Virus record (IMG/VR): IMGVR_UViG_3300024255_000194
Span: 1 to 21,203 of that record
Direction: 5' to 3' (one strand)
Source: a virus
Length of the DNA: 21,203 nt
In this document: piece by piece, positions 3,039 through 20,100 of the stretch
How the letters are laid out: every line of letters begins with the position of its first letter
Position numbering within the stretch: position 1 is the stretch's first letter
Program-made: the position numbers and the translations under genes
Notes under the pieces: model-generated
Seen by the model: the letters and a program-made list of their open reading frames with translations, nothing else
Databases searched by the model: none
What the model was told of the DNA's origin: nothing

Positions 3039-6000
3039 ATGTTTGATTATGATGCCAATATAAGAGTAAATATAAATGACACCGCAGCTTTAGCGGCGCT
3101 TAAAAAATTAGAAGATAGAATAGCACAGCTATCTGATCCTAGAACAGCAGCATCTTTAAAAAATTTAGTAAACACTCAAAGAGCTAGTCAAGAGTTTAGT
3201 GCTTTAAAACAAGAAAGAGCAGAAGACTTAGCGTATAGAAAAAGAAAAACTCGCCAAATAGCAGACGAGTTACGTCTAAGCAATGCTTTAGAGCTGCAAG
3301 AAGCACGCCGCATAAAGCTGCAACGTGCTGGTGCTCTAGACGTACCAAGCCGAAAAAAAGCAATTGCAAAGCTAGACAAAGTAGCTGTTGCTAACCCAAA
3401 AAATGCTGAAATACAAGAACGTGTAGCTACTGGCCTTGCCCGGATTCTTACAACACAAAACGAAATAAACCGAGCAACCAATAAAAATATCGGGCAAAAG
3501 CAGCGTATTGCTGACTACAACAAGCAGATAGATAGGTTACGTGAACTAGGTGCTACTGAAGGGCAGCTAAGGAAAATACAGAAAAGAAAGTACGAATTTG
3601 TAGACGCTGCTGAAAGACGCCAGACCTCTCTTTCTGACCGGCGTGAGCTACAACTAAAACGCGAAATAAAACTACTTGGCGATGCACAGAAAGCAGCTAG
3701 AGATGCAGCCACAGCAGTAACACGCCCTGGAACGTTAAGCGGAGGAGCCAGTTCTGCCTTAAGCAGCGGTCCAGCTCGTACCGCACTCGGCACACCAGCT
3801 GCAAACAAAGCTAGGTTTGATTTTTACGAAAAGAACTATAAAACCGCTTTAGCAGAAGTATTTAAGACAGAACAAGCTTACGAAAAGCAATTACAGTCAA
3901 ACATTTTAAACAACATAAAAGCAGAAGAAGCAGCAGAACTAGCTTCTATAAACAGAGTAGCCGACGCTGAAAGAGCACAAAACAAACGCCTTAACGACGA
4001 AGTAAAACAAAACGACAGGTTACAAAGAGCTAAAGAAGCAGGTATAGCAGCAAGTGCAAAAGCAGGTGGGCCGTCTTCCGCAATAGGTTCCGGCCCAGCT
4101 AGATCCATACTAGGTTCTCCTAAATCAGATCAAGCTAGGTTTAAATTTTACCAAAAAGCATATGATAAAGCTTTAGCAGAAGTAGCTAAAACAGAACAAG
4201 CTTACGAAAAACAACTACAAACAAACAAGTTAAACAATATAAAAGCAGAAGAAGCAGCAGAACTAGCTTCTATAAACAGGGTAGCTGCTGCTGAAAAAGC
4301 ACAAAACAAACGTATTAACGACGAAGTAAGGCAAAGCGACAGGTTACAAAGAGCTAAAGAAGCAGGTATAGCAGCGAGTGCAAAAGCAGGCGGACCTTCT
4401 TCCCCGATAGGTGGAAACAAAGCAACTATTGGTTCACCCGCTTATACCAAAAACCTACAAAGCGCAGGATTAGCTTTACGGCAACTGGCAAAAGGTTTTG
4501 ACAGTACTATAAGAAAAGCAGACAAAGTTAGTGGTAGCAAGGGTGCCACTGGTCCGTTAGCACTGCCCGATTCCAAGACGCTAAAAGCAGCGACTAGGGG
4601 TATCCAAAGGATTGAAACTTCTGCAGACAAAACACAAAATTTTGCTCAACGCAGAGCACAAGCACTCCAGCGATCAGAAGAACGCTCCAAGAGCATCCTC
4701 GAAGCCAATAAAGCATCCGTAAAAGCAGGAAAAGCAAATGCAGCAGAGGCAGCAAAGACAGCCAAGAGTGCTAAGAGAACCGAACTATCTACCAGAAACA
4801 CAACTAAAAACGTCAAAGCAGGAACCAAAGCAACTAAAGCAGCACGCAAAGGCCAGGGTCTATTGGGTTTCGGTCAAACAGCAACTAACCTTTCCGCAGG
4901 TGCAGGCTTCCCGCTGTTGTTTGGTGGCGGTCCCGGCTCCGTACTTGGCGGCTTAGGTGGCGCACTGCTCGGCGGATTCGGCGGCTCAATCATCGGTGGA
5001 GCGCTCGGCCAGCAGCTCGACGCACTAGGCGCAGCAGCAATAAGTACAGCTAAAGCATTTGAAAAACTAGGAGCAACAGCAAGCGATCTAATCCCGTCAC
5101 TGGGACGTGGTCGCGGTGATGGTTTTGGCGGCCAATCTGAATTTCTAATTAATCAAGGCCGTTCATCTCAAGTAGCAAACATCTTACGAGATCGTTTTTC
5201 AGAAGTTTATGGAGATCAAGCACTAAGAGATTTTGAAAAACTAGCACAGGTAAACAAAGAATTTGAAGAAACTTGGCAGGAAATTGGGGTAGAACTTCAG
5301 CTATTGATGGCCGGTCCTTTAGGCGAATTCCTCAAAGCCTTAAAAGGAATATCAAACGGACTCAGAGGTCGAGAAAATGAAGGCGTAGAGGATCGCCAAG
5401 CGCTAAGCCAGAGATTCACAGAACTGAAGTCAAAAGCAAACGCAATAACCTCAGCAGGCGGACAATTAAGCCTCAGTGAAAAAAATCAACTAGAAAAAGC
5501 TCGACTAGCTTTTGCTAATGCAAGCCCCGACAATCAAACACCAGTAGGCGTACAAGACGACCTAAAAACAGCAGCACAGAAAAAGCAAATCGATCTACTA
5601 AAACAAGAGACAGACATCCAAGCCGCTATAAATACAGACAAGCTCGCCGCAGTAACTCAAGCTTTAACAGCACGCCGAGACGACCTAGCAATACTAAATT
5701 CCGCTGCAGGGATCACTAAGGCTGTAGCAGACCTGGAGCGTACAAGGGCACAACTAGCAGCCGAAAGAGCAAAGTCAAATAAGGACAGTTTGACCATACT
5801 AAAACTAGAAAAAACAGAAGCAGAACAAGCCGCAGCCCTAGAAAGACAGCAAATAGCTCAAGCCAATGCAAGAGCACTAGCCGAGCGCCGGATCCTACAA
5901 GAACGCCGCGCACTATCCATACAAGAATTCCAGCTAACGCAGCAAATCTCAAACGAAAAATCAAAATTTAATGCTTTATCAGGTACAGAACTAAAACAAT

Positions 6001-7304
6001 ACGATGAAAAAATACTTTTAATTGAATCAGAATATAAAACAGCTATAGACATTCTAACAGTGCAAAAAGCAGTAGCTTTAGAAGGTAAAAATGAGCTAGA
6101 AGTAAGAAACCAAATAACTGAAAACTTTAAAAAACAAGAAGAGCTAGCTTTAAGAAGTGCGCAAACTCAATCAAAAGAAGTCTTCCAAGCCGAAGTACTG
6201 AGACAGGATAGGTTACAAGCAATCGCAGACCAAAAAGAACTCAACAAACTTACCGCTGAAAATGCAGCCATTAAAGCTATAGACAGCAATAACCCTGAAC
6301 GTACAGCGAGTTTCTCTGGAGCGGGCTTAGGTTTCTTTGCAGAGAGCGCACTAATCGAAGCCAACGTTACCCGGGACAGTGCCGCCCAGCTAGAAGCCTA
6401 CAACGAGCAAATCGGTGCCCTACAAAAACGAATAAAAAATCTTTCTAAATCTAATTTTGGTGGCATCAATGATGGCCGCTTAAGTATCAAACAAGAACAG
6501 TTAGACAGACTTACACAGACGCGAGATCTATACGCACAGCTACAGCCTCAAATTGACGCGGCACGAATAAAGCAAGCACAGTTTAATGACGCCCTTGCAG
6601 CTGTAACCCCCGGTGTGAATGCACTGGTAGGTGGACTACAGGAAGTAGTCGCTGGAACGAAGAGCGCCGAAGAAGCCTTTGCCGATTTCTTAAACACGAT
6701 TGCGGACCAGTTGATTCAGACTGCAGCAACATTGATCGCTCAGTATATCGCTATTGGTCTGGCCAAAGCTTTTGCAGGCTTAAGTAGCGGCGGTGGCAGC
6801 AGCCCCGGAATCCAGCGAGCATTGGACGTGACTCCAAAAACGGGAGCAGCGGCAACCTCGACGCTAAACAACTTTTTATCACCTAGAGCAAACGGCGGCC
6901 CAGTTAGCGCAAATCAGCCTTACGTGGTGGGAGAACGCGGTCCAGAACTCTTTATACCTGGAGCGAACGGTTCAATTACCAACAACGACCAGTTTGAGGC
7001 AGCCCGTAAAGCAATGGGCGGCAGCAACAACAGCTCTAACGACGCCTTTGCCGACAATGCTGAAGCCATCGGCACCTCAACCTCTTACACTAAGGAAAAA
7101 GTGATGGAGCGTGAACGCATCGCTTCAATAAACAGCAACCCAATTGATGTCCGAGCTGAAACTACTGTTATCAATAACGTTGAGTATGTCACCGTTGAGC
7201 AGTTTTCACAGGGCATGAAATCAACAGCTCGGGATGCACAAGCAAAAGTTTTGAGTGATCTTCGCAATCGTCCCGCCACTCGCGCACAGGTGGGTATCAG
7301 ATGA
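3039..7304 (+). CDS. Tape measure protein
   Basis: 1421 residues, the longest protein here. Residues 1-600 are highly helical and charged (Lys/Glu/Ala/Gln-rich), with a two-copy 108-residue tandem repeat at 235-342 and 343-450. Residues about 607-660 form a glycine-zipper-like hydrophobic stretch ('GSVLGGLGGALLGGFGGS'), the usual membrane-active part. Residues about 690-1200 are long coiled coil. A second hydrophobic segment, near 1213-1250 ('LIQTAATLIAQYIAIGLAKA'), precedes a C-terminal signature 'GGPVSANQPYVVGERGPELF' at about 1286-1305, which is very common at the end of tape measures. At about 0.15 nm per residue the tail should be roughly 210 nm long. Composition in the first half is AT-richer than in the tip genes. 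No lysozyme or peptidase motif was recognised. The start ATG 3039 lies 27 bases after the chaperone stop, with only a weak purine-rich element. Confidence 0.92.
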   Translation: MFDYDANIRVNINDTAALAALKKLEDRIAQLSDPRTAASLKNLVNTQRASQEFSALKQERAEDLAYRKRKTRQIADELRLSNALELQEARRIKLQRAGALDVPSRKKAIAKLDKVAVANPKNAEIQERVATGLARILTTQNEINRATNKNIGQKQRIADYNKQIDRLRELGATEGQLRKIQKRKYEFVDAAERRQTSLSDRRELQLKREIKLLGDAQKAARDAATAVTRPGTLSGGASSALSSGPARTALGTPAANKARFDFYEKNYKTALAEVFKTEQAYEKQLQSNILNNIKAEEAAELASINRVADAERAQNKRLNDEVKQNDRLQRAKEAGIAASAKAGGPSSAIGSGPARSILGSPKSDQARFKFYQKAYDKALAEVAKTEQAYEKQLQTNKLNNIKAEEAAELASINRVAAAEKAQNKRINDEVRQSDRLQRAKEAGIAASAKAGGPSSPIGGNKATIGSPAYTKNLQSAGLALRQLAKGFDSTIRKADKVSGSKGATGPLALPDSKTLKAATRGIQRIETSADKTQNFAQRRAQALQRSEERSKSILEANKASVKAGKANAAEAAKTAKSAKRTELSTRNTTKNVKAGTKATKAARKGQGLLGFGQTATNLSAGAGFPLLFGGGPGSVLGGLGGALLGGFGGSIIGGALGQQLDALGAAAISTAKAFEKLGATASDLIPSLGRGRGDGFGGQSEFLINQGRSSQVANILRDRFSEVYGDQALRDFEKLAQVNKEFEETWQEIGVELQLLMAGPLGEFLKALKGISNGLRGRENEGVEDRQALSQRFTELKSKANAITSAGGQLSLSEKNQLEKARLAFANASPDNQTPVGVQDDLKTAAQKKQIDLLKQETDIQAAINTDKLAAVTQALTARRDDLAILNSAAGITKAVADLERTRAQLAAERAKSNKDSLTILKLEKTEAEQAAALERQQIAQANARALAERRILQERRALSIQEFQLTQQISNEKSKFNALSGTELKQYDEKILLIESEYKTAIDILTVQKAVALEGKNELEVRNQITENFKKQEELALRSAQTQSKEVFQAEVLRQDRLQAIADQKELNKLTAENAAIKAIDSNNPERTASFSGAGLGFFAESALIEANVTRDSAAQLEAYNEQIGALQKRIKNLSKSNFGGINDGRLSIKQEQLDRLTQTRDLYAQLQPQIDAARIKQAQFNDALAAVTPGVNALVGGLQEVVAGTKSAEEAFADFLNTIADQLIQTAATLIAQYIAIGLAKAFAGLSSGGGSSPGIQRALDVTPKTGAAATSTLNNFLSPRANGGPVSANQPYVVGERGPELFIPGANGSITNNDQFEAARKAMGGSNNSSNDAFADNAEAIGTSTSYTKEKVMERERIASINSNPIDVRAETTVINNVEYVTVEQFSQGMKSTARDAQAKVLSDLRNRPATRAQVGIR
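3741..4064 (+). repeat. Tandem repeat copy 1 in the tape measure gene
   Basis: First of two 324-bp units (108 codons, residues 235-342). It begins G-G-A-S-S-A-L-S-S-G-P-A-R and ends A-A-S-A-K-A. Protein identity with copy 2 is high across the whole unit, with identical blocks such as 'KAEEAAELASINRVA' and 'DRLQRAKEAGIAASAKA'. Confidence 0.9.
4065..4388 (+). repeat. Tandem repeat copy 2 in the tape measure gene
   Basis: Second 324-bp unit, residues 343-450, directly abutting copy 1 in the same frame. A degenerate start of a third copy (G-G-P-S-S-P-I-G, then T-I-G-S-P) follows from 4389 and fades after about 20 codons. Long DNA stretches are identical between copies, so the duplication is fairly recent. 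Confidence 0.9.
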
Positions 7305-7771
7305 CAATTGCAATTGGCACATACATAAAGTTGTTGGACCACGCTGGTGATCCAGCTGGATATGGATTCCAAAATTTTCACCACGACGAAACAAGAACCT
7401 ACAACAGCGACAGTTATGTATTTGCAGCGTTTGGGTTTTCCGGTGGCACGGTTGACTTGCAAGCTGGAAACATCAGTGCCAGCCTTGTCTTTGCTGTTAA
7501 TCAGCTTGACCTATTAGTTTTCCAGCAAGCCGTTCAAGACCGTTGGTTAATTCAAATCCGCACGGTTTGGTTGGACCCGGATACGCTGGAAGAAGGCAAT
7601 ACCTATGGAGAGGAAGTGTATGCGATCACGGGTTTGGAACACGATAGCAGTCGTTTATCCGTTCGCCTTGGCAGTCCATTGGACGCTGTAAGTCAGAACG
7701 CTCCACGCAGGTTGTTGACACAAGACCTTGTTGGCAGCCTTCCATCTACCGGAAACATAAACCTCCAATAA
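7301..7771 (+). CDS. Minor tail protein, gpL / distal-tail-like
   Basis: 156 residues, overlapping the tape measure stop (ATGA) and the next start (TAATG). After an N-terminal 'IGTYIKLLDHAG' come 'SYVFAAFGFSGGTVDLQAG' and a helix-strand region 'LLVFQQAVQDRWLIQIRTVW'. The C-terminal signature 'LSVRLGSPLDAVSQNAPRRL' is what I recall from minor tail proteins of the lambda gpL / distal tail type, where S-P-x-D-A and P-x-R-x-L recur. These proteins form the ring that joins the tube to the tip hub. Location between tape measure and J-like gene fits exactly. A DUF1833-type label is a possible alternative. Confidence 0.6.
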   Translation: MTIAIGTYIKLLDHAGDPAGYGFQNFHHDETRTYNSDSYVFAAFGFSGGTVDLQAGNISASLVFAVNQLDLLVFQQAVQDRWLIQIRTVWLDPDTLEEGNTYGEEVYAITGLEHDSSRLSVRLGSPLDAVSQNAPRRLLTQDLVGSLPSTGNINLQ

Positions 7772-10700
7772 TGCTGACCCCGAACCGCCAGATTGCTTTA
7801 CTGCCGCAAGATCGACAGATCATGCAGCTTACTGGAATGAGCGAAAAGGACTATCGCTTTTTCATGCGGCAGGCGATCCTGCATTCAAAGTTGCGACCTG
7901 GGGAGCCAACAGCATTTATTGACCCAGTATCAATTTTGATTCAGCTAGTCATTGGCATTGCCTTGACTTACTTAGCGACACTGTTGATGCCAAAGCCAAA
8001 GGCACCAGAAGCGCAAAACCTAGATGTCAATACAGTTCAGGGGCAGAACCTTGTCAACGGTGCGCGATTTACGCCAAAAAGCGGTTTTGACTCTGTTCAG
8101 AACGTAGTTGAACTTGGATCGGTTGTACCACTTGTTTATGCAAAAAGGCAGGTTATTGACGGTATTGCTTATGGCGGAGTAAGAGTCAATACAAATTTAA
8201 TCTGGTCACAGATCTATAGCATTGGCGGCGGACAATTACTAAGAGCGGTTTTCTTGGTCGGTGAAGCCAACATTACAAATTTAGATGCCGAACAGTTTGC
8301 TATTGGCAACAATTTAATCAATGGGTACGACTTAAACAGTGATTATGGACGCATAACAATTTACTCAAGCCCTGATGGTGGGCGTCTTAGGTCTTCTGAT
8401 CGTATTGCTGGCCAGCTTGCTGCAAATGATACAGGTAACGCTGAAATTTCTGGCGGCAGTGACGTGTTTCAAGTTCGTGGCGTAGGCAATGCTTGGACCA
8501 CTGATTTTTGTTACGTCTCCACCCCAAGCAACCAGACGACGTTTGGCCTGTATGGGTTTATCGGGAATAACTTCCTATACAGGGTCAACCCGGTATTTCG
8601 TACAGCCCGAAAAGCTGAAACCAGGTCTGACGGTGAATTAAATTGCGCTACTGACGACCAACAACGAGCAGAACGCAACAAGCAAAACTATAAGTTTCCT
8701 GGCCGGGCTGGAGCTATCACCACAGGAACAGAAGGATTGCAGACGTTAGCGGTAGGTAGTGACGTAGAAGTAGTGATTTATAGCAGCACGGATGTTGAGC
8801 GATTGTTTACTTATGGTGATGACGGCGAAGTCAGTTGCGGCGACGTAGGCCAAGCCGTCGCTTCTCGTCAGCGATCCAATGATGAACAGATTAATTATGG
8901 CGATTTGTATCGAATTGGTAGCGCATTAGCAATTTGCAAATCTCGATCAGCTGACGTTTTTGTGTCAAATGCGGACAATGAGCCTGTTGGGAACGGGGTT
9001 ACAACCACGGCAACATTTGAAGTTATTCGCGCTGGTCAGGCAAATTTATGGGCTGCTGGGACGGTGCAGGCGGCTGGTGGTTATAACGCCACACAGAGCA
9101 GCCACATTATGCAGGCAGCGGAAGCAATCTTTTCTACTGAACGCCAAGGACGTGTTGTTGAAGTCGGAATCCGCAGCAATCTACAGGTCAACATTGCAGG
9201 GTTGTGCAATTTCAAGGATGCCAGAGGGTATGAGCGAATTGATTATGACGCTTGCGACAAAGACGACGGCAAAGACATTGGTGATGCAAACCTAACTAAT
9301 TTCACCAGCGGCCAATACAGCACTTTTGAAACGCGCTATTCATTTTTTCGCGTTGGTTATCGTGTTGCAGGATCCAATGACTCTTATACCGATCTGAGTC
9401 AACTGTTTGGCGTCAGGAGCACAACAGGTGTTGCGGTTTACAACTACTTGCGCTTTGAGTTTCCCGATGTTCGCCGCTGGGAGATTCGCATGACCCCGAT
9501 CAGCGGCTGGGAGGTAAGAAACAATATCGCAACGGGTGATCTTGAGGTATTAGATCCGCACCTTGGCAATCTCAGGACTGTAACGAGTGGCAGCGTCAGT
9601 GTGTCTTACACAGGCGAACAGGTGGCTCGGAGCCAAGATACATTTGCTATTCAAAGCTTGTCACCACTAGAAACAGAAATTTCTGGTGTTGATACAGCCG
9701 GAATGACTGTCGGCAAGGGTTATCAAGCTGGGACGTATAACGTAATCCTCGATGCCACGACTGGTTCTGGCCGAAACGCACAAGCCACAATTGTGGTGAC
9801 AGTGCCATTGATTGGGGGGTCACCTGATCCCGCTGGCGGCAGCATTACAAGCTTCACTCTCACAGACGGCGGCAGCTTGTTCCAAGTAGGTAACACGCTA
9901 CAGATTCGTGATCCACTTAGTGTGTCTGGGTTGATAGACCCAGCGGTTGCGATCAGCCCAGTATTCCAAATTAACGTTACAAGCGTTATTAAAAAAGATC
10001 TTGGGACAGGTTTTGATGATGGTGAGTTTTATGCAGACGCCTACGCACGTTTAGCTGAAAGTTTTATCCACAACGAAATCAGCGCAAGTACCAGCCAACC
10101 CGAACATCAGGTTGTTTATATCAATACGATTACTGCCAATACAAGCACACCGAATTACGAAAACATGGCAATTGTTGGCATGAATATTCGCAGTAGTAAA
10201 GAGATTAAAACATTGAATCAATTTAGCGTTTATGTAAACAGTGGTATTAATGCCACGTCAAGTTTCCCCGAAGTGCTGCTTGACCTGTTGACAAATGATA
10301 GGTACGGGACCGGGCAGGTTTTAAGTTCTGCTCAAGTTGATCAGGCTAGTTTTGCCGCTGCGTCCACATTTACTTACAACCGCCGATATTTCTTTGATGG
10401 CGCGGTCAGTGACAAGATCAATATCAGGTCATGGGGAGCGCAGACAGCTGCGAACTATTTACTTGACCTTGTGATCCGCAACGGTAAGTTTGCTTTGGAG
10501 CCTGTAGCCAGCTTCGATGCACCCGAGCCTATTACGCAGTTGTTTACAAGTGGCAATATTCTCGAAGATTCATTTTCACTTTCATTTTCTGACGATCAAG
10601 AACGGATACCGCCAAGGATTTCTGTTATCTGGCGTGAAGAGCGCGAGACAAGCGGCACTGTCAGCAAAGGTCTTTTCCCAGTTTCGCGGGAGGTGACAGT

Positions 10701-11250
10701 AAGGGAAAACAGTACGCCTGAAGACGCTCCAGTCGAGAAAATAGATATGAGTGACTACTGCACCAGTCAGCGCCACGCAATCGACCGCGCCAAATGGGAA
10801 TGCTTAACGCGGCGGCTTGTCACCCACAGCGTGAGTTTTAAAACCACACCTACAGAAGCAGCATTAGACATTGGAGCGGTTTTCAAGTTAGGCATGGAAA
10901 CAATCAGCTACAACCAACCACAAAACGGAGCAATTGCAGCTGATGGAGCAGTCACGTCATGGCCTGAAATGGCAGATGGCACTTATGACGTATTGCTTTG
11001 GGACGGGAAAGACAATGTAATCAAGGAGGCATCGCTGACAATTGCTGGCGGGAAGTGCAGCCAGAGTCCTGCCGTTTTCTGTTTAAAAAATTCAATCAGC
11101 AATGTCCAAAGCTATAAAACTCAGTCCCTGTCATTTGATGAAGACGGTAACATAGATGTGGTAGCGACTTACTATCCAACTGCTGACAGCGGTTACTCGC
11201 AAATGGTGGTCGAATTTGACGACAGCAACTTTGTAATTGAGGGGACGTAA
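7771..11250 (+). CDS. Central tail hub / tip attachment protein, J-like
   Basis: 1159 residues. Residues 1-50 are a soluble head, and 53-73 are a clear hydrophobic segment ('ILIQLVIGIALTYLATLLMP') followed by 'KPKAPE'. Residues about 110-135 hold 'VVELGSVVPLVYAKR', the G-x-x-[IV]-P-x-[VL]-Y-[GA] hallmark of lambda J-type hubs, then 'GIAYGGVRV' and 'WSQIYSIGGGQ'. Residues about 625-742 look like an inserted beta domain ('SITSFTLTDGGSLFQVGNTL'). Residues about 944-1046 ('RIPPRISVIWREERETSG', then 'CTSQRHAIDRAKWECLTRR') match the hub domain that follows in J proteins. The protein ends soon after, without a long fibre, so receptor binding has probably passed to the downstream genes. Several Cys are scattered in residues 245-500. 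Confidence 0.82.
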   Translation: MLTPNRQIALLPQDRQIMQLTGMSEKDYRFFMRQAILHSKLRPGEPTAFIDPVSILIQLVIGIALTYLATLLMPKPKAPEAQNLDVNTVQGQNLVNGARFTPKSGFDSVQNVVELGSVVPLVYAKRQVIDGIAYGGVRVNTNLIWSQIYSIGGGQLLRAVFLVGEANITNLDAEQFAIGNNLINGYDLNSDYGRITIYSSPDGGRLRSSDRIAGQLAANDTGNAEISGGSDVFQVRGVGNAWTTDFCYVSTPSNQTTFGLYGFIGNNFLYRVNPVFRTARKAETRSDGELNCATDDQQRAERNKQNYKFPGRAGAITTGTEGLQTLAVGSDVEVVIYSSTDVERLFTYGDDGEVSCGDVGQAVASRQRSNDEQINYGDLYRIGSALAICKSRSADVFVSNADNEPVGNGVTTTATFEVIRAGQANLWAAGTVQAAGGYNATQSSHIMQAAEAIFSTERQGRVVEVGIRSNLQVNIAGLCNFKDARGYERIDYDACDKDDGKDIGDANLTNFTSGQYSTFETRYSFFRVGYRVAGSNDSYTDLSQLFGVRSTTGVAVYNYLRFEFPDVRRWEIRMTPISGWEVRNNIATGDLEVLDPHLGNLRTVTSGSVSVSYTGEQVARSQDTFAIQSLSPLETEISGVDTAGMTVGKGYQAGTYNVILDATTGSGRNAQATIVVTVPLIGGSPDPAGGSITSFTLTDGGSLFQVGNTLQIRDPLSVSGLIDPAVAISPVFQINVTSVIKKDLGTGFDDGEFYADAYARLAESFIHNEISASTSQPEHQVVYINTITANTSTPNYENMAIVGMNIRSSKEIKTLNQFSVYVNSGINATSSFPEVLLDLLTNDRYGTGQVLSSAQVDQASFAAASTFTYNRRYFFDGAVSDKINIRSWGAQTAANYLLDLVIRNGKFALEPVASFDAPEPITQLFTSGNILEDSFSLSFSDDQERIPPRISVIWREERETSGTVSKGLFPVSREVTVRENSTPEDAPVEKIDMSDYCTSQRHAIDRAKWECLTRRLVTHSVSFKTTPTEAALDIGAVFKLGMETISYNQPQNGAIAADGAVTSWPEMADGTYDVLLWDGKDNVIKEASLTIAGGKCSQSPAVFCLKNSISNVQSYKTQSLSFDEDGNIDVVATYYPTADSGYSQMVVEFDDSNFVIEGT
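9643..9996 (+). other. Probable inserted beta domain in the J-like hub
   Basis: Residues about 625-742 are rich in Thr, Val, Gly and Ser, with a strand-like 'GTYNVILDATTGSG', 'AQATIVVTV', and a 'FTLTDGGSLFQVGNTL' unit. The T-x-T-x-G-G-S-x-[FY]-x-V-G-[ND] pattern recurs in phage structural proteins as a small beta module. Limits are approximate and the assignment rests on composition and pattern only. Confidence 0.4.
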
Positions 11251-11252
11251 GT

Positions 11253-11627
11253 ATGGCCAGCTTTCCAGCAGTAAGCCCGACACGGCGCAGTTTTACGCCT
11301 GGTGAGTACCAGACCAAGCGTTTTGACAGTATAAGCGGCGCAGGTACAACCCGGCTGTATGGCAGCAAGGCGTCAAATGCAACTCTAAATCTTGAGTTTT
11401 TGCTTGACGATACTAAGACTGCAGCAGTCCTTCAAAGCTGGCACGACAGTTTGGGCGGAGCAAAAATCTTGACGTTACCGGCGACAGTATTTGAAGGCAT
11501 GAACGGACCAGAAAATCAAATACCGAGTTATTTGAATTGGAGATGGGCAGAAATGCCAAACGTCGAGTCTTTAGTGCCTGGTCGATCTAGAATACGGGTG
11601 ACGTTGGTAGCAACACTGGACGGCTGA
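11253..11627 (+). CDS. Small minor tail protein of the tip
   Basis: 124 residues, two bases after the hub stop. It opens 'FPAVSPTRRSFTPGEYQTKR' and continues with 'TTRLYGSKASNATLNLEFLL', a helix 'TAAVLQSWHDSLGG', 'LTLPATVFEGM' and the end 'RSRIRVTLVATLDG'. I recall related proteins with P-x-S-R-x-[FY]-x-P-G near the start and Y/W-x-G-S/N plus a L-x-L-x-F strand in cyanophage tail-tip clusters. The beta-helix-beta layout resembles the small ring proteins of siphophage tips (for example the lambda gpM position). The exact role is unknown. It is coupled to the next gene by a one-base TGATG overlap. Confidence 0.5.
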   Translation: MASFPAVSPTRRSFTPGEYQTKRFDSISGAGTTRLYGSKASNATLNLEFLLDDTKTAAVLQSWHDSLGGAKILTLPATVFEGMNGPENQIPSYLNWRWAEMPNVESLVPGRSRIRVTLVATLDG

Positions 11628-12022
11628 TGGGAGTCTTAACAGGAAGCGATGGCCAATTAAGATTTAACGGCAGTGCTGTAGGTAAGTGCCGAGAGTGGAC
11701 TCTTAACGTTTCAAAAGACGCTTTAGAGGATACATCAATCGGCAGCTACGACAAAACTTATGTTGAAGGCATGAGGGGTACAACTGGATCGGCCACTGTT
11801 TTGTATGACCCAAGCAACCGAACTGCGGCTTCATTGCTTAATTCTATTTTCAGCAATGAGCAATCAAATTCTCAAGTAGATTTTGTGCTTCGCCGTCAGG
11901 ACGGCACAAGTCTTAATTGTTATGCCTTTGTAACTAGCATCAGTCCAAGTGTTGCGGTTGGTGCGGTCCAAGCCGTATCTGTTAGCTTTCAAGTGAATGG
12001 GAAGCCTGTAGGGAATTTCTAA
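11627..12022 (+). CDS. Second tail-tube-like protein (tube paralogue in the tip cluster)
   Basis: 131 residues. It aligns by eye with the core of the major tail tube protein without its inserted domain: 'VGKCREWTLNVSKDALEDTS' against 'VGQVRDWSFEINRAEIDVTT', then 'TTGSATVLYD' against 'GTGSATVYMT', a shared helix (S-L-L-N-S-I-F against N-R-M-I-E-D-V-L), and the ends 'AVQAVSVSFQVNGKP' against 'DAQSVSVSFRPSGTP'. The level of similarity indicates common descent, not just a shared fold. It may form a ring at the tip or a specialised tube ring at the distal end. Overlaps on both sides by one base (TGATG, TAATG) tie it to the tip operon. Confidence 0.72.
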   Translation: MGVLTGSDGQLRFNGSAVGKCREWTLNVSKDALEDTSIGSYDKTYVEGMRGTTGSATVLYDPSNRTAASLLNSIFSNEQSNSQVDFVLRRQDGTSLNCYAFVTSISPSVAVGAVQAVSVSFQVNGKPVGNF

Positions 12023-13158
12023 TGGCTGTACTTGGTATAGGTGGGAAATTGCTCTTAAAACGAGCAGCACCAGAGCCATTCCTTATTGCGGACTCGACTC
12101 TTGATTTCGGGAATAATCTTTACACTGCTTGGCAAGCAGACTATTGGAATGGAGATCATGTAAGCGTTGATTGCTTGCCAACATCGACTGGCCCTTTTCC
12201 TCCAAGAGTTAGCGGGTACGGAAGTTATGTAGGGAGTAAGTGGTTTCTGGGGCCAAACAGATCGCAAATAAGCACAAATGAAGACACTTTTTATAAAACT
12301 GGTGCAGAAAATTATCCAGACGGCGCCCTAGGCGATGCTTCACAATTCTATTCGCGAGAAGGTGACACTTCTGGCGGCGATGTAATTCCGTCTTGCAAGT
12401 CTGTCAACTACTACATACACATTGATAACCTAGACCGCGTAAGCTTTTACCTTGACCGGTGTGCGGCTCTTACAGGATCTCCAACTAATCGAATTAACCT
12501 GTTCTCTGTTGCAGGAACACTTACCGTCTCTCCTCACGGGGCTACTGACTATCTAAATGCTATTTGGGAATGCGTTTCTAATTTAGGTGAGTTTAATTTT
12601 AGTGACGCTCAAGATACCGTGACCTTGATAAGTATTTGCGCCGATGCGCCTAGGTATCAAATACCCGAAGCCAATCCAAACAACGAAACTTTTTCTTATA
12701 ACAATGCGGACTTATTACCGAGAGAAGAAACGGCAGAGCCGCTTTGGCAACAGCTTTGCGATATCGCTCAATGGTCGCTTGAATTAAACGCTCCAAGCGT
12801 AGAGACCACATCAGTTTCAGAAAAATTCGGCAACGCAGTTAAATCGTTAATCACAGGCGGTGGTTCTGCTGAGTTTCTCATTGACCGGAAGTGTTACGCC
12901 GATGAGAAAGACAACGGACTTGCACTATTGCAACTTCTTATGATGACAGAAAAAGGATGTCAAGCCACCGCGCAGTTCTGGATGGTTGATCGGGAAGGAA
13001 GCCCGGACGCCAGTCTTGGGGCGCTCCAAGGCGGCTTATATTACGAGGCAAATATTTTGGTCACTGCAAGCGCCGTGAATTTACGTCCAACGGAAATCGT
13101 TGCGGGGACGGTGCAGTTTGTGACGACAGAAGACATTAAACTATTGGTATCATCATGA
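12022..13158 (+). CDS. Tip protein with a C-terminal tail-tube-like domain
   Basis: 378 residues. The N-terminal ~240 residues begin 'MAVLGIGGKLLLKRAAPEPF', with 'ADYWNGDHVSV' at about 39-49, and contain several Cys; I do not recognise a named domain. The C-terminal ~140 residues look like another tail tube core: 'WSLELNAPSVETTSVSEKFG' aligns with 'WSFEINRAEIDVTTIGQTPG' of the tube protein, followed by 'GGGSAEFLID', a helix 'GLALLQLLMMTE', 'ATAQFWMVD' and 'LYYEANILVTASAVNLRP'. A three-dimensional ring made of this domain could extend the tip, with the N-terminal part protruding. The family recurs in cyanophage tip clusters as far as I recall. Translation is coupled to the upstream gene (TAATG). 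Confidence 0.55.
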   Translation: MAVLGIGGKLLLKRAAPEPFLIADSTLDFGNNLYTAWQADYWNGDHVSVDCLPTSTGPFPPRVSGYGSYVGSKWFLGPNRSQISTNEDTFYKTGAENYPDGALGDASQFYSREGDTSGGDVIPSCKSVNYYIHIDNLDRVSFYLDRCAALTGSPTNRINLFSVAGTLTVSPHGATDYLNAIWECVSNLGEFNFSDAQDTVTLISICADAPRYQIPEANPNNETFSYNNADLLPREETAEPLWQQLCDIAQWSLELNAPSVETTSVSEKFGNAVKSLITGGGSAEFLIDRKCYADEKDNGLALLQLLMMTEKGCQATAQFWMVDREGSPDASLGALQGGLYYEANILVTASAVNLRPTEIVAGTVQFVTTEDIKLLVSS

Positions 13159-13168
13159 TTTCAAGAAC

Positions 13169-16100
13169 GTGACTGAAATAAATCGCGCTGGCCAGGCTGG
13201 GTCTCTAGGGCATATTGACACGACCCAGGCAGGCTTCCGGGGTCAGGTTGATGCGGTTGCAGATGAGCTAAGGCAGTTGGCGGGCAATGCAGATCTTCCA
13301 TCGGATCCGCTGTCTGCCCCTTATGTTCTGTATGTAAATGGATACACCGGGCAGGACACCTTTGTCGGTGGTGCATATCAAGCGACTGAGGTTGAAATCG
13401 AGCGGCGCATAAGCCTTCAAAAACTTGAATGCGGATATTCCGAGGCCCGTCCATTTAAAACCATCAACCGCGCTGCAATTGAAGCAGCCATTATTACCAG
13501 CCGCGACTGGTTCACGACACAACGCCAAAAGGACCGCGCCCTAGTTTCAATTGTTGTAGCGCCAGGTGAATATATTGTTCTGAACGACGATGGCCAAGTA
13601 TTTAGCCCTGCCGACTTCCCAGCACGAAGCAGTTCTTATGAACCAACTGATGCAGATCTAATTAGCTTTAACGATCCATCAGGCGGGGTAGTGCTGCCCA
13701 GAGGGTGCAGTGTCGTCAGCCTGGATCTTCGCAAAACACTATTGCGTCCCAATGCTGTACCGGCACCTGCTGATGAAGCAGCGGATTACAGCAACCGAAG
13801 AACAATTTTTAAAGTCAGTGGAACGGGTTACTACTACGGCTTTACGTTCAAGGATAAATTAAACGCCAGCCAAAGTCACCATTTGCTGCACGCCTTTGAA
13901 TTTTGCAGTCAAGCCGAACTTGATTTGTTCTATCAAAAAATTCTGGCAAGTTTTGCAGCTGCTGACCTATCTGCAAGCAATACAGTTTCAAGCGAAACAG
14001 AGTATCAAATTGTTGGACCGTTACCCCCTACACCCACGTCAGCTTCAGACACCGTAGGTTCCGCAAGCCCATATATCTACAACACAAGTGTTCGCTCAGT
14101 GTGGGGGATGGGCGGTGTTTTCGCGAATGGTGCCAAGCCCGAAGGCTTCCGCAGCATGGTGATTGCCCAGTTCACATCGGTGTCTCTTCAGCAAGACATG
14201 AGCTGCTGGCAGCTTTATTCCAGTGGAACATGGGGAGCAGTTGCTGATTACACGACATATATCAACGCCAGTCCAGACAACATCAGGATGAACCCTGATC
14301 GGCGTTCATTCCATATAAGAGCAATTAACAATGCTGTTATCCAAGAAGTAAGTGTTTTTGCAATTGGGCAAGGTGTTCACCATTGGACTCAATCTGGTGG
14401 TGAACTTACGATCACTAATAGCAACTCTAATTTCGGAGGTTGTGCAGCTTTATCTGAGGATTACAGGACATACGCATTTAACAACGACCAGGACTGGACG
14501 ACAAGTCGTTTGCGTGTTGCAGGTAACCTTGCAGAAAAAAGAGGAAACGTAGTTAAAATTTATGTTGGTGATGTTGCTGACGGTCAAACCGATGCTGCAA
14601 TACAAAGCCAAGATTGGTTTAATCTTGAAGAAACTTTGGAGGAAAGTGTTGCAGCACCTGGCGAACCCCGTATTTTACGAGAACGGAATTATACGTTCCG
14701 CCAAGGGTCTTGGCTATGGATTGAAAATCCTATAGGCGCTGATTACAGAGTACAGCTGCCTGCTAACACTTGGGACGTAACTGATCCTGATAAATTAAAT
14801 TTCTTGGGAACAGTAGAAAACGAAGACGGCATTCAGCCTGGTCAGGCCATTTTGACACCTTCGGGAGTACCAACTGGTCAATACTATCCATCGCTTGCAG
14901 GCCGTCGAGTTTACATTCGTCGTTTGCGGGATAACCGTTCCAGCGAGGCAAAACGCTTCAGTGTAGTTCTGAACAACACAAACAATCAGTGCCGGTTGCC
15001 TGTCCGTGATTATGTAGCACAAACGCCAACATCAGGTATTCCAAATACTGACATACTTACAGTCTTGCAAGTTGGCGGAGAACCAGCAAGTGACGCCGGA
15101 GTAAAGAGAACCGCAAGTGTTGTACTACGCCGTCAGAATCCTGCGGCACCGTGGACTTCTGGCCGGTATTACCGTCCTGGTGACAATGCTACGGCAAACG
15201 GAAAGCATTATATGTGCGTCAAGGAAACAACTGATACCTCATTCTTAGACGCCGAATGGCAAGAATCATTTGTCCACATGGAAGAAACTTATAACAACGA
15301 AGATTTCCTGCCTAATGCACAGCCAGAAATTGCTTTTGACAATGACACTGATGGCAGTGGAACATCCGTAACTTGTGGCTATGACCTAGCGACTGTATGG
15401 AGCACTGACCCGCTTGTCATTAACCAATACCGCACAGCCACTGATTACTTAGGGATACATTCGTTTCTTGTGAGCATAGGTTTTAGTGCTAGCGATGCAC
15501 ACACAATTCTGCTGCCAAGAGCATTTGACGACCGCGACCGGAACCCTGGAACGCAGCTAGATGGTATTGCCCCACCAAGCGGAGCTGCTACTACTTGGGC
15601 AAACTGGCCACTTGAGTTCCGTCGCCCCAGCATTATTAGGTTGTTTGGCCATGCCTGGGAATGGGCCGGATATTTGAACTATACAAAGGCAATGCCTCAG
15701 TATCAGCAAGAGCTGGGCAACATCAACCGCTTTACCTATTACTTCACCCATCAAAACGGCGGACGAGTATACGCATCAGGATTTAACCAAGAGGGATTCC
15801 TCGTTAATAACCGTGGCTTGGAAGACCTAGCAACCGGATCAGTCTTAAGTGTCGATCAACTCGGGAGTGATGAGTACACAATTGACTTTCCTACCTATTA
15901 CGAAAACCTTTCTGTTGACAATATATCCGTTAATTCTCAATTAAATTTAACAAGCTCTGAAATAATTGGCAGGCCAACATGGCAAGAGAGCGGCTCTAAG
16001 CCCTATCTGGCCACTGTTGACAAAATCAGCATGGGACCGTTCGGTGGACCGTTACCTGAATTACCACTATCCACCCAAACACAAGAAGGTGTAATCCGAC

Positions 16101-17086
16101 TAGCCACTGAGCAGGAAGCGCAGGCATTTGTACGCGATGACCTAGCAATTAGTCCCGCCACGTTGATTGAAGCCCTAGGCGATGCAGTCAAGAGTGTGGT
16201 CAATGCTCGTATTAGCTTAAGTAGCACAAGTGCTGTTCCTGACGGCAATCAAGGCGGCAGCACACTTTACCTGCATCCATATAACGGCAACGAAATTGCT
16301 CTTTACAGCTCAGTTACTCAACGCTGGGGTGTGCGTCGATTTGGCGATGTTAAGTCGTTCTCACTGTCTGGGGCAGGAACAGCTAATACAAACTACGACG
16401 TTTACATCAGGGACACTGATCCAACAAACCCGACCACTCCAACAATGGCATTAAGTTTTGTTGCTTGGGGTGGTGATCGCACACCACCGGCAAGAGATAG
16501 TCAAGACGGTATTCTGGTCAGGAGCGGCGACCCAACACAGAGACTGTTCGCAGTAGTTCGCACTACAACAGCAGGGAACAGCATTGTGGACCTAGGCGGT
16601 GTCATTGATGGCGTAGATTCAGCGAACTACCCAAGGATGTATGTAGCAAACCTCTACAACCTTTATGACGTAAGCAGCCGTTATTTCTTCGGCAACAGCT
16701 GGCAGGTTGCATCCGCTGACTGGGCTCCTGTACCCGCCAGTGTGTATTCAACAACACCTCGCTGTTCATTCGTGCAAGCTGGCGAAACGCTGGTAACAGC
16801 CTTCTTGGACATTTATTCAAATTATTCCGGGCAGAATGGCCTTACTGATAAGTCGATATGCTATGTCGCACCTGGAATCAATTCAACCATTGCCCCACCA
16901 GACGATGCTTTTTACGGTGAAACAATGGGTATGAATGACACCGTTGGGTCGCAATGGGCAAGAACTTTAAGTCCAGGTCTGAACGATATTTACTACTTAT
17001 ACAAAATGACGGTGGATGGAGCCGTGACCACTAACGTGGTCAATGAACATGAAGCCCACGGCACGATAATTACAACTAAAGCCTGA
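13169..17086 (+). CDS. Large tail fibre / appendage protein with beta-helix-like N-terminus
   Basis: 1305 residues from GTG 13169. An ATG at 13155 is out of frame and stops after five codons, and no ATG fits the conserved-looking start 'TEINRAGQAGSLGHIDTT', so GTG is chosen. Residues about 45-135 have 'DPLSAPYVLYVNGYTGQDTF', 'RPFKTINRAAIEAA' and 'VSIVVAPGEY', typical of pectin-lyase-like beta-helix entry segments. Around 658-685 'WTSGRYYRPGDNATANGKHY' resembles a small carbohydrate-binding pattern (W-x-x-x-x-x-Y-x-x-G-D-x-x-x-x-x-G-x-x-Y). Around 972-1000 is the fibre motif 'EGVIRLATEQEAQA' followed by 'ISPATLIEAL'. The end, from about 1031, begins 'TLYLHPYNGNEIALYSS' and has 'LSGAGTANTNYDVYIRD', a C-terminal module seen in many siphophage fibres. 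It probably contacts the host surface. Confidence 0.75.
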   Translation: MTEINRAGQAGSLGHIDTTQAGFRGQVDAVADELRQLAGNADLPSDPLSAPYVLYVNGYTGQDTFVGGAYQATEVEIERRISLQKLECGYSEARPFKTINRAAIEAAIITSRDWFTTQRQKDRALVSIVVAPGEYIVLNDDGQVFSPADFPARSSSYEPTDADLISFNDPSGGVVLPRGCSVVSLDLRKTLLRPNAVPAPADEAADYSNRRTIFKVSGTGYYYGFTFKDKLNASQSHHLLHAFEFCSQAELDLFYQKILASFAAADLSASNTVSSETEYQIVGPLPPTPTSASDTVGSASPYIYNTSVRSVWGMGGVFANGAKPEGFRSMVIAQFTSVSLQQDMSCWQLYSSGTWGAVADYTTYINASPDNIRMNPDRRSFHIRAINNAVIQEVSVFAIGQGVHHWTQSGGELTITNSNSNFGGCAALSEDYRTYAFNNDQDWTTSRLRVAGNLAEKRGNVVKIYVGDVADGQTDAAIQSQDWFNLEETLEESVAAPGEPRILRERNYTFRQGSWLWIENPIGADYRVQLPANTWDVTDPDKLNFLGTVENEDGIQPGQAILTPSGVPTGQYYPSLAGRRVYIRRLRDNRSSEAKRFSVVLNNTNNQCRLPVRDYVAQTPTSGIPNTDILTVLQVGGEPASDAGVKRTASVVLRRQNPAAPWTSGRYYRPGDNATANGKHYMCVKETTDTSFLDAEWQESFVHMEETYNNEDFLPNAQPEIAFDNDTDGSGTSVTCGYDLATVWSTDPLVINQYRTATDYLGIHSFLVSIGFSASDAHTILLPRAFDDRDRNPGTQLDGIAPPSGAATTWANWPLEFRRPSIIRLFGHAWEWAGYLNYTKAMPQYQQELGNINRFTYYFTHQNGGRVYASGFNQEGFLVNNRGLEDLATGSVLSVDQLGSDEYTIDFPTYYENLSVDNISVNSQLNLTSSEIIGRPTWQESGSKPYLATVDKISMGPFGGPLPELPLSTQTQEGVIRLATEQEAQAFVRDDLAISPATLIEALGDAVKSVVNARISLSSTSAVPDGNQGGSTLYLHPYNGNEIALYSSVTQRWGVRRFGDVKSFSLSGAGTANTNYDVYIRDTDPTNPTTPTMALSFVAWGGDRTPPARDSQDGILVRSGDPTQRLFAVVRTTTAGNSIVDLGGVIDGVDSANYPRMYVANLYNLYDVSSRYFFGNSWQVASADWAPVPASVYSTTPRCSFVQAGETLVTAFLDIYSNYSGQNGLTDKSICYVAPGINSTIAPPDDAFYGETMGMNDTVGSQWARTLSPGLNDIYYLYKMTVDGAVTTNVVNEHEAHGTIITTKA

Positions 17087-17146: not shown

Positions 17147-20100
17147 ATGGCAGTTCAGTTAATCCTCAAAAACAGCAATGTCGAGGACAAGCGTCCTCTT
17201 GCCTCACAGCTTGCTGATGGCGAGCTAGCACTTAACTACAACGAAGAAGGCGCATTTCTTTCTTGTAAGGATTCAGCTGGCAACGTTCAACAGGTTGGTG
17301 GCGTCAAGATTTCTGAGGCGCAACCGAGCACACCTTTACAGCAAACAATATGGCTTCAGCCATCAACACAGACCCTGTTTGTTTATGACGGTTCTGAATG
17401 GTTGACCATTTCGGCGGATGGAAGCATAGATTTTTCAGCTCTGGCCTCCTACACAAGCCCAGAGAATGAGGACCAAATTGCAATACTCGACACCGCTTCA
17501 AACACAGTAAAAAAAGTAAGCCTTGAAGATTTAATTGCAAAGCGGGCTCGTGATAGCCGCCGGATCTATCTCAGCAAAGATACCAAAGCAAATGACAGCA
17601 ATAACGGGACTTCTCCTGAAGAGCCGCTATTGACGTTTGCGGCTGCAATTGCAGCGGCAGAGCCCGGTGATGTCATCGAGGTTTCTCCTGGAACGTATAC
17701 CGAGGCATCGCTACCGCTTCGCGTTCCAAGGGACGTTGGAATTTTTGCCAAGTCCCTGCGTCAAGTGAAGATCCAACCTGCTGCTGGGCAGGAAATGAAC
17801 GGCTTTTTCAAAGTCGATTCAGGTTTCTGGGTGTGGGGCCTTGAGTTCGCTGGGCATCAGGCTGACCTCGCTAACAACCAGCAATCATGGGCGATTTCAT
17901 TTGATGATCAGGCAGACAACACCGCGGCGCCACTAAATGCCAGCGGCTTAGGTGCTTTTATCCTGAAGTCACCGTATGTGCAGAACTGCTCCAGCGTTAC
18001 GGCTGAGGATGATGCTGGTACGGCAGGCTCAGTCTCTGTTGGTGATACTGGCGGTGGCATTGAAGTTGATGGTGATAAGTGCGCGGCGAATAGCCCTATT
18101 CGCTCAATGGTGGTGGATAGCTATACGCAGGTGAACTTAGGCGGTCCTGGGTGCAGTATTAAAAATGACGGATATGCTCAATTAGTATCATTTTTTGGCA
18201 CATTTTGCACGTTTCATGTTAAAGCAGAGAGTGGCGGTCAAGCTAACTTAAGCGGCGGTGGAACGACTGACTTTGGCGATCAAGGATTGGTTGCTGATGG
18301 ATATAGCCGTTTGCCTAATTTCACTGGGTCTGCTCGCGTTGCAGCTTATGGCGCTGACAGGGCTGAAGCCCCAGTCGTAATTGACCCAAGTCTGGACACT
18401 TTTACGACTAGTAGCGCTCACACCCTTGTCGCAAACGATCAGGTTACGTTCAGCGCAACTGACGGGACGCTGCCAACGGGCGTAACGGTAGGAACCACCT
18501 ATTACGTGATCGCGTCAGGGTTGACAGCTACGGTTTTCAAGGTTAGCGCGACTGAAGGCGGCTCATCAATTGACGTTACTGGCAGCGCAACTGGGACATA
18601 CCAGTTTGTCCGTCAAGGTCAATTAACTGCTGACGTGATCAGCTTAACCACAAACAGGATTGGCAGTAAGTCAAGGCCCAATCCGGGGCAACTAATGTTC
18701 CCACGCCAGACGTTCCCGTCTGCTGGGCAACCCGGTTCTGCTGGCAATGCAGTTGGCGTCACGGCTGGGGTCGGTTCTACGTTTACGGTAATTCTCAATA
18801 CGTTCAGTTATTCGCACGAATATGTTTCTGGTGGAACGGTAACAGTTGGCGGCACTTCTTACAACATCGCCACTGCAAGTTATGACCATACGACTGGAAT
18901 AACAACACTGACGGCAGCTGGATACTCGCCGACAACAGGGGACTCAGCTGTACTGTCTGGCCTGGAGTTTATTTGCCCTACGCATGGGGTGTATACAATT
19001 ACCGGCAGCGTACCAATCGACGCAAGCGGAAATGTTGTTGCAGTAGACAGCCCAAGCCTTGCAGGTTACAGGCTCAATTTTTACAACACGGTGAACGGCG
19101 GTCTTCGCTCTCCTATTGCTGCAAGTCAGGTTATTGATTTTAGATTAAGGTCTCAAGTTTCTTGTGCGTTGCATACTATGGAGTATGTAGGTTCGGGCAC
19201 TAACTACAATGCGTTGCCATGGAATGGAGGAGTGCCTGTCCCTGCAAATCAGCGTGTTGAGTTAAATAACGGCAGAGTATTTGGTGCAACAATTAACGAG
19301 AAAGGTGACTTTGAAATCGGTGATGACACGTTCAGTATCGATGGCACTACTGGCGAAGCAACGATTAACACAAGCCAGTTTAATATTTCTGGGCTGAACT
19401 TTATTGGGCCATTTTCTCGCAATGGCGGGTTTAGTACTGTCGGTGTTCAGCTAAAAGAAGTCAGTGCCAACACATCACTAATCGCATCAACGGGGTCTGC
19501 AGATGGAAACACTGCACCAACTCAGAGCGCAGTAAAAGCTTACGTTGACAGCACTACTGTTCAATCTGTCGATTTAAGCGCACCAACTGGATTTACATCA
19601 ACCGGCGGACCAATCACAGGTTCAGGCACGCTTGCCCTTGGGTACGACACGGGTTACCAAGGCTATTTAACAACGGAGGCAACTAAGCTTGCAGGGATTG
19701 CTGTTGGTGCTGAGGTCAACGTTAATGCTGATTGGAACGCTTCAAGCGGTGACGCTCAGATCCTAAACAAGCCAACAATCCCGTCTGGAGATCTCGTTGA
19801 TGACACAACGCCTCAACTTGGGGGGAATTTAGATCTAAACGGTAATGACATTGTTACCACCTCCAATGGCGATGTTAATTTAGATCCCAATGGATCCGGC
19901 GTTGTCGTTGCTAAGGGTAATGCCACTCGCGGCTCAGGCCAAGTCAAGCTGAATTGTGAGCAAAACAGTCACGGCATCACGCTTAAAGGTCCGGCGCATT
20001 CTGCTAACGCAAATTACACGTTGACGTTTCCGAGTACAGACGGGAATAATGGCGAAGTTTTGCAGACTGATGGTAGTGGAGGTTTGTCTTGGGCTACGAC

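Follow-up and report, generated by a model that had tools for sequence, protein, structure and literature searches.

Gene order and tail proteins of the window

The stretch of DNA analysed here (the window) is a virus fragment of 21,203 bases from IMG/VR. It carries, in this order, genes for head closure, tail completion, the tail terminator, the major tail protein 1617, a chaperone and the tape measure 3039, followed by 7301, the J-like 7771, 11253, 11627, 12022 and the fibres 13169 and 17147 (genes are named by the position of their first base). The host of this phage is likely a cyanobacterium because the nearest isolates infect marine cyanobacteria; one scan of bacterial genomes in search of the host found no relative. 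The major tail protein 1617 is flanked by the tail terminator (phrog_179) and the tail assembly chaperone (phrog_344), and members of its family match phrog_158 "major tail protein" (up to 3.7e-6). The starts of 11253, 11627 and 12022 lie on the last base of the preceding stop codon or at most 2 bases from it, so that we read these 3 genes as one tightly packed unit. The tail features relevant to this work are:

1617-2387, + strand: major tail tube protein 1617 (256 aa), with the tube core at residues 120-256 and a decoration domain inserted at about residues 17-119
1665-1973, + strand: decoration domain in the first hairpin of 1617, missing from 11627 and without profile similarity to the insert of 12022 (0-2%)
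6900-7304, + strand: C-terminal ~135 codons of the tape measure gene, which travel with the tip cassette (87% nucleotide identity to loci L021, L014 and L027; no nucleotide match for the N-terminal part)
7301-7771, + strand: small tip protein 7301 directly 3' of the tape measure, probably a gpL-like hub component (family profile matches)
7771-11250, + strand: J-like central hub or host-specificity protein 7771 (phrog_31 central tail fibre J, 2.7e-5; phrog_27845 tail protein, 2.6e-25)
11253-11627, + strand: probable distal tail protein 11253, gpM/DTP-like (PHROG matches of its family; S-H1 gene at the gpM position, 1.3e-6)
11627-12022, + strand: undecorated single tube domain 11627 (131 aa), proposed tip ring (phrog_10528; profile match to the 1617 core)
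12022-13158, + strand: tube domain with a large insert, 12022 (378 aa), proposed decorated tip ring (profiles, PHROG matches of relatives, AlphaFold model and structure searches)
13169-17086, + strand: tail fibre 13169, companion of long-form 12022 (phrog_529 tail fibre, 6.8e-93)

The coordinates and lengths that a previous sequence-only reading had given for 1617, 11627 and 12022 were confirmed. For the proteins surrounding them, the family profile of 7301 matches KBS-S-2A gene 61, which lies at the gpL position (2.4e-5), and S-CBS1 gp16 (7e-17). All 36 members of the 11253 family match phrog_15525 (minor tail protein) and 7 of the 36 match phrog_1302 (distal tail protein), and 11253 is the best distal-tail candidate in the window.

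Several minor features were observed along these genes. The translation of the tape measure 3039 contains 2 near-identical segments of ~110 residues in tandem (about 3700-4430), and the tape measure of L014 is split across 2 frames near its end (L014:1370-3277 and 3385-3675), by a frameshift or a sequencing error. The J-like protein 7771 has a hydrophobic stretch close to its N-terminus (7915-7990, residues about 50-75), within the part that matches tail-assembly PHROGs.

A tube domain common to 3 tail proteins

Sequence comparisons indicate that one tube domain is common to 1617, 11627 and 12022, with a similarity far beyond chance. The sequence-only reading had aligned both 11627 and the C-terminal part of 12022 with the core of 1617 by eye. 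Proteins 1617 and 11627 share 25% identity over 130 aa (BLASTP E 1e-9) with a Smith-Waterman Z of 13.9 (0 of 1000 shuffles), and this alignment therefore stands. The C-terminus of 12022 gives weak signals when single sequences are compared (E 0.005 and 0.028; Smith-Waterman Z 7.0 and 4.1), and the shuffle control pair of 11253 and 1617 reached a Z of 3.0.

Profile-profile comparison of families gathered from IMG/VR found the proposed similarity at 96-98%, with 5 tail or head families as controls (11253, 7301, chaperone, terminator and head closure) staying at or below 6%. The profile of the 1617 core matched those of 11627 (98%, 5e-15) and of the core of short-form 12022 (97%, 2e-11), the latter also matched 11627 (96-97%), and the cores of short and long 12022 forms matched each other at 100%. 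The core of the long form, which is the type encoded in the window, reached 64-84% against 11627 or the 1617 core when used alone. The profile similarity to known tube proteins is significant for 11627 as well as for 12022, where it is strongest via the short-form relatives.

In the curated PHROG library, which is independent of our profiles, protein 11627 matches phrog_10528 "major tail protein" (1.3e-11), and it looks like a complete, ordinary tube protein, and its matches to PF18906, PF06199 and PF16460 fall below the family cut-offs. From this homology, it is expected to adopt the tube beta-sandwich fold. The same PHROG is matched by 23 of 70 members of the 12022 family (best 9e-6), and no distal-tail PHROG is found among the matches of these 70 proteins. 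Two features of axial tube proteins, a hairpin at the N-terminus and a conserved loop region, are retained in both 11627 and 12022. Among searches against solved structures, profile A2 matched PBSX XkdM (E 0.028) and the R4C tube (0.53), profile A6 gave a single weak match to a minor tail protein, and only chance matches were obtained with profile A5 and—all of them to antibodies—with profile A1. A tblastn search with 12022 found no match in the phage isolate collection.

Protein 12022 is a tube domain with a large insertion

In 12022, a complete tube domain is interrupted within its first hairpin by an insert of about 225 residues:

12022-12069, + strand: first hairpin of the tube domain, residues 1-16, in register with residues 1-16 of 11627 after splicing out the insert
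12070-12747, + strand: insert, residues 17-242; the short forms have a homologous one of ~120 residues (short versus long insert 94-96%)
12541-12738, + strand: dispensable section of the insert, residues 174-239, missing in L003, L005, L010 and L018, which retain the remainder
12748-13155, + strand: main part of the tube domain, residues 243-378, predicted as strand-long loop-helix-strand-helix-three strands, with profile match

The length of the insert is about 225 residues in long forms and about 120 residues in short forms of the family. When it is removed, the 12022 profile aligns with 11627 from residue 1 through the end (residues 1-16 joined to the core), and the hhalign score against 11627 rises from 54.6 to 64.9 for the short forms and from 35.2 to 42.6 for the long forms. 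Because of this spliced alignment and of structural alignments that span residues 4 to 378, we view the extra domain as an insertion in the first hairpin and not, as the sequence-only reading had it, as a new N-terminal domain to which a tube copy was fused. The likeness of the C-terminal part to the tube core holds, via the short forms, but the tube domain is not confined to the C-terminus since its first hairpin is formed by residues 1-16.

An AlphaFold model of 12022 built from 70 sequences is of middling confidence (mean pLDDT 66, pTM 0.63), after an earlier run with 22 sequences had been poor (pTM 0.43). It predicts a brief hairpin at the N-terminus, followed by a large central region and then the succession of strands and helices listed above for the main part. 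A Foldseek search with this model placed tail chains of 80alpha, Sf11, SaPI1, NF5 and lambda on top (E 0.005-0.05, none below 0.001). VIA-align gave Z scores of up to 7.5, mostly for tube, Hcp and baseplate chains aligned over model residues 4 to 378, and thus all below 8, the range where the tool warns of common arrangements; the list of structure matches also includes some non-phage folds (PilZ-like VCA0042). These structure scores alone would not prove a tube fold of 12022, and they agree with the profile evidence.

In the major tail protein 1617, the same hairpin is interrupted by ~100 residues that belong to a different sequence family than the insert of 12022. Since the 2 inserts look alike by eye and share this position, we considered that they might be the same domain, which the profiles (0-2%) reject at this sensitivity. 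A copy of the decoration domain of 1617 is present in fibre 17147 at residues 412-483 (18380-18595; phmmer 2e-10).

A tip cassette exchanged independently of the tube gene

The C-terminus of the tape measure, 7301, the J-like 7771, 11253, 11627 and 12022 constitute an exchangeable tip cassette. Across 272 loci, 12022 directly follows a gene of the 11627 family in 198 of the 199 cases with a visible upstream gene, and in the single exception it is preceded by another ORF of its own family. The adjacency of the 2 genes, already noted in the sequence-only reading, was also seen in 17 out of 17 loci that had been found via the tube gene and form an unbiased sample for adjacency.

The same cassette is joined to at least 4 kinds of tube gene in related contigs. 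With 11627 and 12022, it occurs together with 1617-type tubes at 18 loci; L021 and L014 have a tip nearly identical to that of the window, yet an S-CBS1-type two-domain tube; and the tip pair is also found on contigs with a single-domain tube of the S-H1/MED4-184 type (L280) or with an S-2L-like tube (L282). The joint in L021 and L014 lies inside the tape measure gene, of which the last ~135 codons match the window (87% at the nucleotide level) and the remainder is unmatched. Relatives of 1617 at 77-99% identity come with tips whose 11627 protein has diverged to about 30%, and the isolate KBS-S-2A combines a tube protein 72% identical to 1617 with a lambda-like tip. Among the KBS-S-2A genes tested, the 11627 and 12022 profiles matched none except its own major tail protein. 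It follows that tubes and tip cassettes are exchanged independently of each other.

Because the cassette with 11627 and 12022 joins several tube types and KBS-S-2A has a 1617-type tube without a detected pair, we favor the view, with some reservation, that these 2 tube-fold proteins encoded in the exchangeable cassette form rings in the tail tip and not in the tube body. Neither gene has the position of a major tail protein, as both are located after J and 1617 sits between terminator and chaperone. The shared domain and the resemblance of 11627 to a complete, ordinary tube protein would also suit a place of both proteins in the tube body. This is improbable, however, given that they travel with the tip cassette instead of the tube gene and co-occur with several tube families whose interfaces cannot all match theirs.

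Additional copies of 1617-type genes were seen in some contigs. One of them, a second full-length major tail protein of the 1617 type that is slightly extended at its C-terminus, is encoded after fibre 13169 at L178:11862-12791 (the same as L278:6123-7052, minus strand), and the gene at the normal position of that contig lies at L279:5508-6293. Two different 1617-type tube genes are found at opposite ends of one 43 kb contig (L277:6294-7115 and L044:442-1254), which may reflect a mixed-strain assembly instead of a real second copy.

Origin of the 3 families

The sequence-only reading had proposed that duplication of the tube gene supplied the additional rings. In our tree, 11627, 12022 and the 1617 type are separate families, all of them old. 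The 11627 profile scores the major tail proteins of other phages (S-H1, 97 bits; MED4-184, 76; DSL-LC06, 71; CRP-811, 53) above that of KBS-S-2A, a member of the 1617 type (43 bits). These results do not support the idea that the phage recently duplicated its own tube gene. A very old tube duplication is possible because AU tests leave the deep branching order ambiguous, with a grouping of 11627 and 1617 not rejected (p 0.31) and neither one of 11627 and 12022 (p 0.06). We rejected the use of a single tree to date the duplication, as the deep order is ambiguous and mEp235 is misplaced by its long branch.

A scenario in which the own tube gene of the phage gave rise to 11627 and to 12022 as a fused copy could draw on the significant similarity of 1617 and 11627, on the AU result for these 2 proteins and on one tree that groups the cores of 12022 and 1617 with 92/88 support. 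It is nevertheless very improbable in light of the old separation of the families, the preference of 11627 for tube proteins of other phages, the independent swapping of tube and tip, and the anatomy of 12022 as an insertion instead of a fusion. Synechococcus phage S-H1 encodes 2 tandem single-domain tube genes at the major-tail-protein position (L032:14582-14995 and 15001-15420).

Variation of 12022 and its association with a side fibre

On either side of 12022, locus L003 and the window share 97-100% identity, which drops to 70-85% inside the gene. The L003 copy of 12022 shares 98% identity with that of L013, and the L003 copy of 11627 is 99% identical to that of the window and 84% to that of L013. 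This is a whole-gene allele exchange of 12022, and the only clean swap of a 12022 allele that we found. The idea that 12022 is generally hypervariable was dropped since this was seen in only 10 of 58 close pairs and the median identity equals that of the flanks.

Fibre 13169 lies directly 3' of long-form 12022 in all 58 non-identical cases and directly 3' of short-form 12022 in 0 of 74. This association may go back to a single historical event, given that all long forms fall into one clade.

Proposed tip rings

The tail tube of T5 continues through the tip via rings of the same tube domain that differ in their decoration (PMC10038345). One of them, p140, is an undecorated tube-fold ring between the tube and the distal tail protein that is encircled by the fibre-bearing collar p132 and has been proposed to stem from a duplication of the tube protein (PMC10038345). 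Similarly, 11627 is an undecorated tube-domain protein that is encoded in the tip region beside a probable distal tail protein. However, p140 comprises 2 fused tube domains (forming a trimer) and shares 9% identity with the tube protein pb6 (PMC10038345), whereas 11627 has just one such domain and is 25% identical to 1617. Moreover, p140 and p132 have been called a landmark of T5-like phages only (PMC10038345), and no p132-like collar gene was identified here.

For 12022, the closest parallel in architecture would be distal tail proteins such as R4C Dit, whose tube-like core has a barrel-like insertion domain protruding outward (PMC10276861), and T5 pb9 with a tube-fold core decorated by an OB domain (PMC10038345). 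Unlike these, 12022 is encoded after J and beside the better distal-tail candidate 11253, and it matches "major tail protein" PHROGs rather than distal-tail ones. Additional tube-fold rings between baseplate and tube are also known as gp48 and gp54 of T4 (PMC10038345, PMC8718954), but this is a contractile phage and no link to an exchangeable tip cassette has been shown. Of the annotated isolate proteins tested, those closest to 11627 are the single-domain major tail proteins of Synechococcus phage S-H1 and Prochlorococcus phage MED4-184, whose genes have the standard position before the tape measure, in contrast to the location of 11627 in the tip cassette.

The analogy with T5 p140 and R4C Dit suggests 11627 as a bare ring and 12022 as a decorated ring near 11253, each of them on the tail axis beside the distal tail protein. 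As a bare ring, 11627 would give the tip its own fixed interface so that one tip could cap several kinds of tube. The insert of 12022 would point outward and hold or surround the base of a side fibre, which in this lineage would be 13169. Beyond the domain, the insertion, the gene linkage and the module exchange documented above, we infer ring formation, position in the virion and fibre contact from these known systems, and the fibre-facing role of 12022 is a guess. Wider still, and rather doubtful, is the reading that the tips of a widespread group of marine siphophages rest on 2 dedicated rings, with 11627 as the bare adaptor to unrelated tubes and 12022 as the partner whose insert varies, is swapped as whole alleles and selects the side fibre.

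Alternatively, 11627 and 12022 could be a fibre adaptor or a collar around the hub instead of rings lining the channel, as might be expected from genes that lie after J and directly 5' of the fibre genes, from the constant succession of long-form 12022 and fibre 13169, and from the large insert. We regard this as unlikely, since both proteins retain the hairpin and the loop region typical of axial tube proteins and since their neighbor, 11253, resembles a distal tail protein. It is also conceivable that the 2 proteins are no virion components at all and, for example, initiate tube growth. Yet the tube-fold initiators gp48 and gp54 of T4 remain in the virion (PMC8718954), and such a role as pure assembly factors seems extremely unlikely.

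Most tail-tip proteins with a tube fold have been recognized through structures, their sequence similarity having vanished, as in the case of p140 and pb6 with 9% (PMC10038345). The signal found here is real and uncommon, as the sequence-only reading had stated. Such proteins were known to exist, and the novelty lies more in how clearly their sequences are related, in the constant pairing of 11627 and 12022 and in their inclusion in a tip cassette that moves independently of the tube. Since the relation can be read from sequence in about 200 contigs, it becomes possible to trace how tip rings evolved. One tip cassette with at least 4 kinds of tube and one joint inside the tape measure gene amounts to a testable statement on the sites of exchange between tube and tip, and it suggests how phages mix and match tails with host-binding tips. 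If true, the presence of 2 tip rings would explain this recombination of tails and tips.

A different arrangement was observed in S-CBS1, where the neighboring gp18 and gp19 (L276:11028-11396 and 11393-11917) both match the distal-tail-like profile of 11253. This pair occupies the place taken in the window by 11253 and, after it, 11627.
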